A stretch of DNA of 64,000 nucleotides from Clostridium sp. 12(A). GTDB lineage: Bacteria; Bacillota; Clostridia; Lachnospirales; Lachnospiraceae. The stretch lies in assembly GCA_000526575.1 (NCBI GenBank), contig JAGI01000002.1, positions 2,046,001 through 2,110,000 of the forward strand. Direction: 5' to 3'. This document shows, in pieces, positions 24,767-27,153 of this stretch (position 1 is its first letter; every line of letters starts with the position of its first letter). The translations under genes and the position numbers were made by a program. The notes beneath the pieces were generated by a model. That model saw only the letters and a program-made list of their open reading frames with translations, made no database searches and was not told where the DNA came from.

Positions 24767-24887
24767 AATAGGCTAGCCTCCATTTTTGTTCCCTCTAAAT
24801 CCAGGTAATTTCTGGGTATAATTCTTCTATAGTATACTACAAGATGACCATTTCTACAACTGTCACCCATGATACCTGATTTTATAT

Positions 24888-24932
24888 AAAAAATCATGTC
24901 TATGATCCATCATTAGCTGGCCATAGACATGA
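24888..24932 (-). terminator. Intrinsic terminator after the AraC/siderophore-binding gene
   Basis: TCATGTCTATG (24894-24904) pairs with CATAGACATGA (24922-24932); on the minus strand TTTTTTATA follows. Confidence 0.85.
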
Positions 24933-24979
24933 CTTATTAAATTTCATTTTTATAATTAAAAATACCTATTTTCGTTGAA

Positions 24980-25972
24980 TTAACCCTGAGTCTTCAAAGC
25001 AAGAAGCTCTTCCACAATAAAGTCAATCTGGCTTCTTATGGAAATAACATCATTAAAGGTGGAAAGGTATTCATTCATCAAAATAACATTCCCGTTTTTC
25101 ACCGCTTCCAGACTTTCATAGACCCCATTTCCTGAAAATGCATTATTTTTTCCATCTCCATAGAGAATGATATAATCTCCGCAATATTCTGGTAAAACTT
25201 CAAGAGATATATTTGCATACCACTCTCCAGTCTTATAAAGCTCATGCCCTTTTTCACTTCGAGTCATTCCCAGTTCATCATAGAGTGCCTGAGCTCCTTT
25301 ATACGTAGAGACGACAATATCGGGTTGCTCAAGGCTGTTATTCATAAGCGTAACGCTCTCATCCTTGTATCCAGCATCCGCCAGCTTCTGCCTGGCTTGT
25401 TCCATATGAGAAGTATAATCTGATAATACTTTATCTTTCACGGAATCGTCCACGCCTAAAACATTACTTAAAAATGAAAGTCTTTCTTCTGTGGTCAGCT
25501 GAGTCGTATCCTTAGCCGTCCCAAAGCTGACCGTGGGAGCTATTTTACTTAGTTTCTCATAGTCCTCATCTTTTTCGTATGCTGTAATAATTAAATCCGG
25601 CTCTATTCTCATGATTTCTTCAAGTTCACTGGCTCGTGGTATATCTTTTAACAAGTCTTCAACAGCAGAACCTGTAATTGCCCAATAATCGTTGATTGCC
25701 GCCGGCGTAACTCCAAGTGCAAGAACATCTCCAAAAGCATAATTCATTACCACTACCTTTTGAGGACTTTGTGGTATTGTCACATCACCTCTGACCGTAC
25801 TCACAACTCTCGTTTCTTCGTCCACCTGCTGCTCCGCTTGACTGGTAACCGCCTTGGACTGGGCAGAATTTCCGCTTTCGTTATTCACCGGCGCGCTACC
25901 GCAGGCATTCAATAGCAATATCATTGACACTGCCGCCGCAACTGCCATTTTGCTTTTCATTTGTTTGAACAT
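24980..25972 (-). CDS. Iron-siderophore ABC transporter substrate-binding lipoprotein, internal start
   Basis: Starting at ATG 25972, after GGAGGAAAAGGAG, this is a normal 330-residue precursor with a signal peptide and lipobox LNAC (Cys24). The mature protein is a type III (FhuD/FepB-like) binding protein: PQKVVVMNYAFGDVLALGVTP, a long linker helix, LEEIMRIEPDLIITAYEKDEDYEKLSKIAPTV and VILMNEYLSTFNDVISIRSQIDFI at the end. It should capture a ferric siderophore or haem outside the cell. No permease or ATPase genes are adjacent, so it must use a transporter encoded elsewhere. It has its own predicted promoter, so I expect it to be made separately from the longer AraC-containing frame. Confidence 0.82.
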   Translation of the reverse strand: MFKQMKSKMAVAAAVSMILLLNACGSAPVNNESGNSAQSKAVTSQAEQQVDEETRVVSTVRGDVTIPQSPQKVVVMNYAFGDVLALGVTPAAINDYWAITGSAVEDLLKDIPRASELEEIMRIEPDLIITAYEKDEDYEKLSKIAPTVSFGTAKDTTQLTTEERLSFLSNVLGVDDSVKDKVLSDYTSHMEQARQKLADAGYKDESVTLMNNSLEQPDIVVSTYKGAQALYDELGMTRSEKGHELYKTGEWYANISLEVLPEYCGDYIILYGDGKNNAFSGNGVYESLEAVKNGNVILMNEYLSTFNDVISIRSQIDFIVEELLALKTQG

Positions 25973-26938
25973 GTAGTTTGCTCCTTTTCCTCCTGGTTTG
26001 TCAAAACTAACTTGGCTCTCACAATTATACGAAAAAGAAATCTGTTTTCCAAGGTCATCATCTCTCATATGATGCGACGTGTTCTCTCTATAGGCATTAG
26101 GAGTCATTCCAAAATTTTTTGAGAACATTCTCTGTAGATTGCGTTCATCTTGAAAGCCGCAATAATCGGCAATCTCACGAATGGACGCCTGGCTGTTTTT
26201 TAGAAACTCCGCCGCCGCAGTCAGGCGCATATGAATCAAATATTCCTGAGGGCTTTTTCCCGTCTTCTGTTTAAATCTACGGTAAAAATGACTGTAGCTG
26301 ATGCCCAGTCCTTCGCAAAGTTCATTGATGGAAACAATCTCTCGATAATTTTTTTCTAAAAACCTGGTGGCCATAAGAACCAGATCCGGCTTAAAAATCT
26401 GTATCTGACCTTGCTCCAGTTCCTTGTAGACCTCATACACAAAACGGCTAAAGGCTGCTTTACCATAAAAAATATTGAGTGGTGTGGGGTCCTTCCACTT
26501 TTCATACATAATCCTCAGCTCTTCCAAGAAAAAAAGAGGATTATAAGGCATATAGCCGTATTGCTGGCGATAGGGATTAACCTGTTCCATCAAACGGCGA
26601 TATTCGCTCTTGTGAAGCGGAGGCTCTGCAGCTTTGTACAGTACCATGTAATATTCTAGCCAATCACAATGAGGGATAATGGTCAGTTCTGTTCCCTTGA
26701 TTCCGTGGAAAAGACCGTAACGTGTTACGTTGTATGCGGTATCATTTAATATCTCCGCTTCTCCACCGCTGGTATAGAGAAAAACATTCGCAGGCAGCCG
26801 GTACCCACAAAGAGCTTCTTCGTTTGAAATCAAATTGTGGCGAATATCTATAAGAGAAATAATCCCCCGGTTCCATATCTGAATTGCGGCGGCGATTTCC
26901 TTATGTGTGGAATTTGCAGAGTTTTTATCTATGTACAT
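24980..26938 (-). CDS. AraC-family regulator reading in frame into a siderophore-binding lipoprotein (fusion frame)
   Basis: From ATG 26938, which follows GAGGT, one stop-free frame of 652 codons covers two complete proteins. Residues about 1-150 are a cupin-like sensor, about 180-285 are the AraC DNA-binding domain (IVSINELCEGLGISYSHFYRRF and SIREIADYCGFQDERNLQRMF). After a 38-residue linker comes a full lipoprotein precursor with its own signal peptide. Firmicute regulators that fuse AraC to a siderophore-binding domain (such as Btr) lack an internal signal peptide, so a true fusion would place a secretion signal in the middle. More likely the AraC stop codon was lost, or the read-through product is minor. 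The linker DNA holds a promoter, operator-like site and ribosome site. Confidence 0.7.
   Translation of the reverse strand: MYIDKNSANSTHKEIAAAIQIWNRGIISLIDIRHNLISNEEALCGYRLPANVFLYTSGGEAEILNDTAYNVTRYGLFHGIKGTELTIIPHCDWLEYYMVLYKAAEPPLHKSEYRRLMEQVNPYRQQYGYMPYNPLFFLEELRIMYEKWKDPTPLNIFYGKAAFSRFVYEVYKELEQGQIQIFKPDLVLMATRFLEKNYREIVSINELCEGLGISYSHFYRRFKQKTGKSPQEYLIHMRLTAAAEFLKNSQASIREIADYCGFQDERNLQRMFSKNFGMTPNAYRENTSHHMRDDDLGKQISFSYNCESQVSFDKPGGKGANYMFKQMKSKMAVAAAVSMILLLNACGSAPVNNESGNSAQSKAVTSQAEQQVDEETRVVSTVRGDVTIPQSPQKVVVMNYAFGDVLALGVTPAAINDYWAITGSAVEDLLKDIPRASELEEIMRIEPDLIITAYEKDEDYEKLSKIAPTVSFGTAKDTTQLTTEERLSFLSNVLGVDDSVKDKVLSDYTSHMEQARQKLADAGYKDESVTLMNNSLEQPDIVVSTYKGAQALYDELGMTRSEKGHELYKTGEWYANISLEVLPEYCGDYIILYGDGKNNAFSGNGVYESLEAVKNGNVILMNEYLSTFNDVISIRSQIDFIVEELLALKTQG
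25976..26052 (-). promoter_or_regulatory. Promoter, operator-like site and ribosome site inside the AraC/lipoprotein frame
   Basis: On the minus strand TTGGAA (26047-26052), 17 bases, TATAAT (26024-26029) is a strong sigma-A promoter. Just downstream, 25995-26011 reads GTTAGTTTTGACAAACC, matching the site upstream of the araC start in 15 of 17 positions. Then comes GGAGGAAAAGGAG (25981-25993) before ATG 25972. All of this lies within translated linker DNA. Confidence 0.7.
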
Positions 26939-26965
26939 AACATACCTCAATGATTAATCCAATTA

Positions 26966-27014
26966 GTTAGTTTTGGCTAACCATTAGTGTAACATAGAAG
27001 CGCATTTACGGCAA
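26966..27014 (-). promoter_or_regulatory. araC promoter with iron-box-like operator
   Basis: TTGCCG (27009-27014), 17 bases, TACACT (26986-26991) on the minus strand. Immediately downstream, 26966-26982 reads GTTAGTTTTGGCTAACC on the plus strand, an interrupted palindrome (GTTAG, six bases, CTAAC) that resembles DtxR/IdeR-type iron boxes. The regulator family is inference. Confidence 0.55.
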
Positions 27015-27153
27015 CGTCTGAAAGCTATATATTATATTTTTCCGTCATTTTTCGTTATTTAGACCTTTTACTTCAGCGTCATTAGTTTCTCCTGCAGGGA
27101 CCAGCAGCACCTGTTGAACTATGCGGCAGGGTCATCCGTTAAGAGAACAATAA

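Follow-up and report, generated by a model that had tools for sequence, protein, structure and literature searches.

Results

One open frame joins an AraC regulator to a siderophore-binding lipoprotein

The DNA analysed here (the window) is a stretch of 64,000 nucleotides from Clostridium sp. 12(A) (assembly GCA_000526575.1, contig JAGI01000002.1, positions 2,046,001 to 2,110,000), and our subject is a composite gene on its minus strand in which an AraC-type regulator runs without a stop codon into the precursor of a lipoprotein. The minus-strand open reading frame (ORF) 26950..24980 encodes 656 amino acids if counted from TTG 26950, an alternative possible start; from ATG 26938 it comprises 652 codons and ends at the stop at 24982-24980, and the many stops in the plus-strand translation of 24980-26982 leave the minus strand as the coding strand. 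HTH_18, HTH_AraC and Peripla_BP_2 each score above the Pfam cut-off in the window protein, and a domain search found all three in 17 of the 17 members of set A2. The single stop-free frame of 652 codons announced by the original prediction, with an AraC protein followed by a lipoprotein precursor bearing a signal and a lipobox, was confirmed by ORF analysis, Pfam and a base check. The linker that it described between the two parts is likewise present and open, although 37 residues, not 38 codons, separate the HTH_18 match from the internal methionine.

Read from ATG 25972, the distal part of the frame carries the lipobox LNAC, whose cysteine is codon 24. A predicted structure and a fold search, which mostly probed the siderophore-binding protein (SBP) part, assign the SBP domain a FhuD-type fold, and the linker is of low confidence in the predicted structure. 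The nested product has the signal, the lipobox and the predicted fold of a Gram-positive siderophore-binding lipoprotein of the FhuD class, for which ligand binding is predicted.

The linker DNA itself resembles the region between two genes (Table 1). TTGGAA and TATAAT stand 17 bases apart, AGTTAGTTTTGACAAAC is identical at 15 of 17 positions to the bases at 26965-26981 read in the opposite orientation, and GGAGGAAAAGGAG precedes ATG 25972; each of these elements, all of them proposed earlier, was verified base by base.

Table 1. Features of the composite locus, in window coordinates
Feature	Position	Strand	Remarks
Composite frame: AraC regulator, linker, lipoprotein signal, FhuD-type siderophore-binding domain	24980..26938	-	652 codons + TAA stop
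Nested lipoprotein gene	24980..25972	-	330 codons from ATG 25972; 36 kDa precursor
Signal of nested lipoprotein	Cys at 25903-25901	-	16-residue hydrophobic stretch, lipobox LNAC
Candidate -35, promoter 1, TTGCCG	27009..27014	-	found by eye, letters checked; spacer 17 bases
Candidate -10, promoter 1, TACACT	26986..26991	-	found by eye, letters checked
Operator 1, palindrome GTTAG-N6-CTAAC	26966..26981		pattern scan; upstream site in 25/27 rows
Shine-Dalgarno GAGG, long product	26945..26948	-	letters checked
Direct repeat 1, AGAGAGAA	26082..26089	-	encodes end of helix-turn-helix (HTH) region; offset-22 repeat; synonymous fixation from here
Direct repeat 2, TGAGAGAT	26060..26067	-	22 bases past repeat 1
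Candidate -35, nested promoter 2, TTGGAA	26047..26052	-	letters checked
-10, nested promoter 2, TATAAT	26024..26029	-	in frame = Tyr-Asn; 26/27 rows
Operator 2, GTTAGTTTTGACAAAC	25996..26011		stop-making T of CTAAC = A here
Nested Shine-Dalgarno GGAGGAAAAGGAG	25981..25993	-	GGA codon in 27/27 rows

The linker is open in divergent relatives

A protein search of 25 genomes of the genus recovered full-length, stop-free homologues in six, amounting to 13 rows, three of which belong to this genome, namely the window gene and two paralogues with 48% and 42% identity. Scanning with an alignment of the AraC part gave 16 loci, 13 of them fused through the linker; the titles of the 16 include [Clostridium] aerotolerans, Clostridium minihomine, Clostridium sp. 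HBUAS56010, Scatolibacter rhodanostii, Lacrimispora xylanisolvens, a Hungatella metagenome-assembled genome, Konateibacter massiliensis and Clostridium sp. KNHs205; the remaining loci are frameshifted within AraC (L054), stop at a contig end (L058, Tissierella pigra) or have a weak HTH match only (L061). At E 1e-40 few of the sampled genomes have a member of this fusion family: 3 of 397 in the taxonomic family, 1 of 391 in the class (its own) and 3 of 15 in one other genus. For class and family the genomes were drawn evenly and do not comprise every genome. Our alignment holds 28 rows from 13 genomes, 27 of them with a linker; the signal-free relative L076 was excluded from the linker counts. 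The linker is open, and the internal ATG and the lipobox are present, in all 27, and in each the signal has a hydrophobic stretch of 15-18 residues that ends in the lipobox. Dropping rows at 80% identity or above leaves 20 of the 27, with a median pairwise identity of 44%.

The same bases are conserved as DNA and as reading frame

Conservation in the linker follows the putative regulatory signals: TATAAT is kept in 26 of 27 rows, the operator in 25 of 27 and the Shine-Dalgarno GGA in every row. At the conserved linker columns one codon is used throughout for each residue, with GTT for 25 of 25 valines, GGA for 27 of 27 glycines, AAT for 27 of 27 asparagines and TAT for 26 of 26 tyrosines, against shares of 31%, 34%, 65% and 71% outside the linker. 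In a per-column test on the 20 divergent members, synonymous fixation extended from the last HTH codons (AGA GAG) to the Shine-Dalgarno GGA, and scattered columns with low p values lay outside the linker too. The majority share at third positions was 0.54 in the preceding 100 codons, 0.72 in the linker, 0.83 in linker codons 20-36 and 0.51 afterwards. Conservation of the peptide alone is disfavoured because synonymous codons are fixed, and the nested start and ribosome site are conserved beyond what coding for the long protein would need, as judged from this fixation and from a stand-alone relative described below.

The frame is maintained as well. The first 39 linker codons of the 20 members are free of stops in frame 0; the other two forward frames have 35 and 98, and 2000 shuffles of the linkers gave a mean of 58.6 stops and a minimum of 34. 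These 39 codons occupy 117 bases in 18 of the 20 members and 114 and 120 in the other two (counted through the internal ATG, 120 bases in 18 of them and 117 and 123 in one each), and insertions and deletions in the linker come in multiples of three only. We conclude from the aligned sequences that the linker is selected both as DNA and as a reading frame, its nested signals together with the frame.

Iron-type operators, and a stop codon avoided

The genome contains 25 copies of the palindrome GTTAG-N6-CTAAC and 3 of the backwards pattern. Three of the 25 sites lie before fusion genes and the other 22 in 16 stretches. Among ten proteins near the non-fusion sites Pfam identified two FecCD proteins, a Peripla_BP_2 protein, an ATP-binding cassette (ABC) ATPase, FeoB, an Fe/Mn superoxide dismutase (SOD), a flavodoxin, two DtxR-type repressors and a FUR-family protein; proteins beyond these ten were judged by eye. 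Some sites may be chance occurrences, because 3 of the 22 lie inside ORFs (L100, L111, L112) and one sits beyond the 3′ end of the FUR-family gene. With the palindrome enriched and placed beside iron genes, the window operators are, on present comparisons, probably part of an iron-repressor regulon of this genome, and this location lends support to the iron control proposed for the locus. We take the half-sites to resemble one dimer site of a DtxR/IdeR box, to which binding would be putative; the DtxR-type gene beside feoB has an operator, and the regulon as a whole suggests that the repressor is probably of DtxR type. At L107:2801-6810, feoB, a DtxR-type gene and a FUR-family gene are clustered with two copies of the operator.

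Inside the linker this operator meets the reading frame, for CTAAC after the nested -10 would read TAA in the fusion frame. Upstream operators were recognised by pattern in 25 of 27 rows (in L050 the site is visible by eye; L054 also lacks a match), and every one of these 25 has T at the critical base. The linkers have T there in 0 of 27, and operator 2 is recognisable as C(G/A/C)AAC in 25 of 27. A matched pattern with the same 12-base gap for fusion and other sites found the critical T at 0 of 12 fusion places and at 24 of 27 others (3 of 3 in the genus and 21 of 24 in the family sample); its backwards control gave 1 and 2 matches. Fisher's test returned 1e-7, or 2e-5 once the fusions were reduced to 7 non-redundant loci, values that serve as guides only since the rows are related. 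Twelve of the 27 other sites, inspected by eye, look like ordinary promoters, for example before SOD, FeoB and ABC exporters, and none of these twelve lies between AraC and SBP genes as an unfused ancestor with a TAA operator would; the other 15 are all in genomes without an A1 match at 1e-40. Neutral read-through is disfavoured because the stop-making operator base is avoided.

A direct repeat before the nested promoter

AraC regulators commonly use direct repeats, and AGAGAGAA and TGAGAGAT lie 22 bases apart before the nested -35. Over the 20 members, identity at offset 22 is 0.68, and the other 23 offsets reach at most 0.53. The genome has two exact copies of GAGAGA-N16-GAGAGA, this one and another that by eye appears to lie within coding sequence, a count confined to exact copies. 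By analogy, whether AraC acts on this putative site seems to us evenly balanced.

Binding domains vary behind a more constant regulator

In 210 pairs drawn from 21 members, AraC identity correlated with linker identity at 0.82 and with SBP identity at 0.19. L047 and L054 are 76% identical in AraC and 26% in the SBP, L036 and L055 are 54% and 75% identical, and L078 and L080 are concordant at 86% and 90%. Tandem fusion pairs at L047:5992-10500, L048:1885-5935 and L050:5992-10044 have rather similar AraC parts and dissimilar binding domains, and the DNA of the two L048 copies reaches 95% identity near the nested ribosome site and signal, against about 50-80% in other parts. A third AraC fragment lies at 10115-10366 of L047. 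Fused and stand-alone SBPs interleave on well-supported branches of an SBP tree (read by eye as drawn, with some long branches; the tool's group count left out 18 ungrouped rows), and a single origin of the fused SBP domain finds no support in it. Binding domains thus appear to have been exchanged behind a more constant regulator, a pattern that both SBP swapping and repeated loss of AraC would fit.

By eye, none of the 17 loci whose ORFs were listed has FecCD-type genes directly adjoining the fusion; other ABC transporters lie near the L047 and L077 fusions, and a separate AraC-SBP-FecCD-like group stands about 2.5 kb from the L036 fusion. The window genome also has, at L102:2363-6437, an operator followed by separate AraC and SBP genes and FecCD permeases. 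Matches to HTH_18 (AraC-type) number 74 in its 4.6 Mb.

Lipoproteins without an intact AraC part

A stand-alone lipoprotein in genome G002 (L007:1515-2526) is 75% identical to that of the L039 fusion. Its homology starts at the nested ribosome site, which a TAA directly precedes, no AraC gene was found within 1.5 kb upstream, and no iron operator was seen at it. Two other copies have damaged regulators, L079:6650-8683 (minus strand) through one stop inside AraC and L054:6001-7930 through the frameshift there; in both the frame is open onward to the end of the lipoprotein and the nested promoter is intact. In G023, labelled as the same species, window positions 24876-27148 (2273 bases, the whole fusion gene and both promoters) are replaced by 11 bases between flanks that are 97-100% identical; the fusion gene varies within the species, since it is missing there.

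Discussion

We favour, with moderate confidence, a two-product gene under iron repression as the full explanation of this locus; that one frame yields two products appears very likely, and iron control of both promoters strikes us as highly probable. Promoter 1 would give one chain of 74 kDa containing AraC, the linker, the lipoprotein signal and the FhuD-type siderophore-binding domain, and promoter 2, lying inside the same frame with its own operator, Shine-Dalgarno and ATG 25972, would give the lipoprotein alone. When iron is plentiful, a repressor, probably DtxR-type to judge from the regulon, would occupy both operators; when iron is short both promoters would open, and the AraC domain would probably activate promoter 2 through the 22-base direct repeat by its -35. 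The internal lipoprotein signal would most likely insert the long chain into the membrane and leave AraC in the cytosol, and a cut at the lipobox, which may or may not occur with about equal chance, would yield the lipoprotein and an AraC protein with a membrane-embedded tail. Repressor bound at operator 2 might also stop polymerase that arrives from promoter 1, an idea only. The two iron-repressed promoters and the two products are the best supported parts of this scheme, and activation of the nested promoter by AraC and cleavage at the lipobox are less certain. Of the options first put forward for this DNA, the dual-output gene is the one favoured by the fixed synonymous codons in the -10, operator and Shine-Dalgarno and by the lipoprotein-only relative.

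Several observations weigh against the two-product gene or parts of it. Conservation of the nested -35 is loose among relatives, operator 2 is one palindrome base short, L036 and L075 have no recognisable operator 2, and L037 has TCTAAT. Three of the 27 non-fusion matched sites are also without the critical T. The genome holds both DtxR-type and FUR-family genes, and with them repressor candidates of two kinds. No covariation between the repeat copies is evident, identity being 0.68 within members and 0.64 across members. Free exchange of the SBP is as good a fit to co-expression as to sensing. Finally, by the sequences at hand the long form is dispensable in some lineages, because AraC is broken in L079 and L054 and missing in G002.

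Other explanations would keep the chain whole. An uncut transmembrane one-component sensor would have AraC inside, the signal as a permanent anchor and the SBP outside, where a bound ligand would alter the activity of AraC, with the nested start only adding binding protein. Domain order and the positive residues before the hydrophobic stretch fit this topology, and a maintained frame implies that the joined product matters; but the stretch spans 15-18 residues and closes with a lipobox in every one of the 27 rows, so that it resembles a cleavable lipoprotein signal, the linker is of low confidence in the predicted structure and SBP identity hardly tracks AraC identity, and we think such a sensor unlikely. 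A cytosolic sensor resembling Btr, the regulator discussed below, in which the signal is buried behind folded AraC, the SBP senses imported ferri-siderophore and the nested start supplies the outside lipoprotein, seems to us improbable. Its domain order is identical to that of Btr, and L076, which has no signal, resides in a genome that also has lipoprotein-type fusions; against it stands the good signal in every linker, though the nested product alone would explain that.

The joined frame might instead be a tolerated accident, in which case nothing would matter but the nested lipoprotein and an AraC protein extended at its C terminus. The loss or breakage of AraC beside an intact lipoprotein in L007, L079 and L054 speaks for this, whereas the avoidance of the operator's stop, the absence of stops in frame 0 and the restriction to in-frame insertions and deletions make it very improbable. 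Recent stop loss or a sequencing or assembly error, the other option of the original prediction, has a negligible probability and is rejected because all 27 aligned linkers, from 13 genomes and including two paralogues in this same genome, are open and because the stop-making operator base is avoided in fusions only; no point in its support was found. Comparison of related genomes, recommended at the outset as a check for a stop after AraC, revealed open linkers throughout and not a set of separate genes.

If the two-product gene is correct, a single chain would contain both a cytosolic regulator and a secreted protein, and whether lipoprotein processing can free a transcription factor becomes a testable question. 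One tentative extension, to which we assign a low likelihood, is a sensing cassette: a tethered AraC, whose release or activity would depend on maturation of its own SBP (lipobox cleavage and signal-peptide clearance), would fire the nested promoter, and the SBP would be exchangeable and could be re-aimed to new siderophores. The apparent exchange of binding domains hints at a way in which anaerobic Clostridia may re-aim both the uptake and the sensing of siderophores. More generally, divergent copies have retained as coding sequence an apparent two-gene intergenic region, with promoter, operator, ribosome site and perhaps an activator site, and the stop codon expected of the operator is avoided. 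Selection on a protein frame and on regulatory DNA is visible in the same bases, in natural replicates.

Fusions of AraC and SBP are already known, and the intergenic-type region kept as coding sequence appears to be the new element; word searches of an open-licence library, judged by title or opening of the abstract, found no AraC-lipoprotein fusion with a nested promoter. Genes with an in-frame internal start give a long and a short product, and the window gene would be similar in making two proteins from one frame; here a promoter and operator also lie in frame, and the short product would be a secreted protein with another function. ToxR/CadC-type proteins are membrane-bound one-component regulators with an N-terminal winged-helix DNA-binding domain. 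Like the window fusion, they combine in a single chain a DNA-binding part, one hydrophobic stretch and a domain that lies outside, in the fusion by prediction, but the fusion has an AraC-type HTH, a stretch of 15-18 residues that ends in a lipobox, and a nested promoter. From the ferric-hydroxamate-binding lipoproteins FhuD, FhuD2 and FtsB, the window counterpart differs in being joined in frame to an AraC regulator, and fusions of its type in having no FecCD-type genes directly beside them in the 17 loci viewed by eye.

Btr (YbbB) of Bacillus subtilis, tabulated in PMC3616918 as a bacillibactin-responsive AraC-SBP regulator, has an N-terminal domain, an AraC HTH and an SBP domain in the same order as the window fusion and the same link to siderophore uptake. 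The fusion differs in its lipoprotein signal and in the nested promoter, operator and ribosome site between the domains. Against the Btr equivalog NF049932 (NCBIfam) it scores 59.1 bits where the cut-off is 900, the match covering the HTH region only (residues 126-266 of 531). Btr works in the cytosol and has no signal peptide, whereas a signal with a lipobox is present in all 27 rows. Because the equivalog score is far below the cut-off and a lipoprotein signal is present, the fusion is distinct from Btr; in its predicted organisation it is a Btr-type fusion combined with the intergenic region of an operon. L076:7144-8820 encodes a Btr-like AraC-SBP fusion of 559 residues with no signal peptide and an iron operator upstream; its genome also holds two lipoprotein-type fusions, and its SBP groups with that of the second L048 copy.

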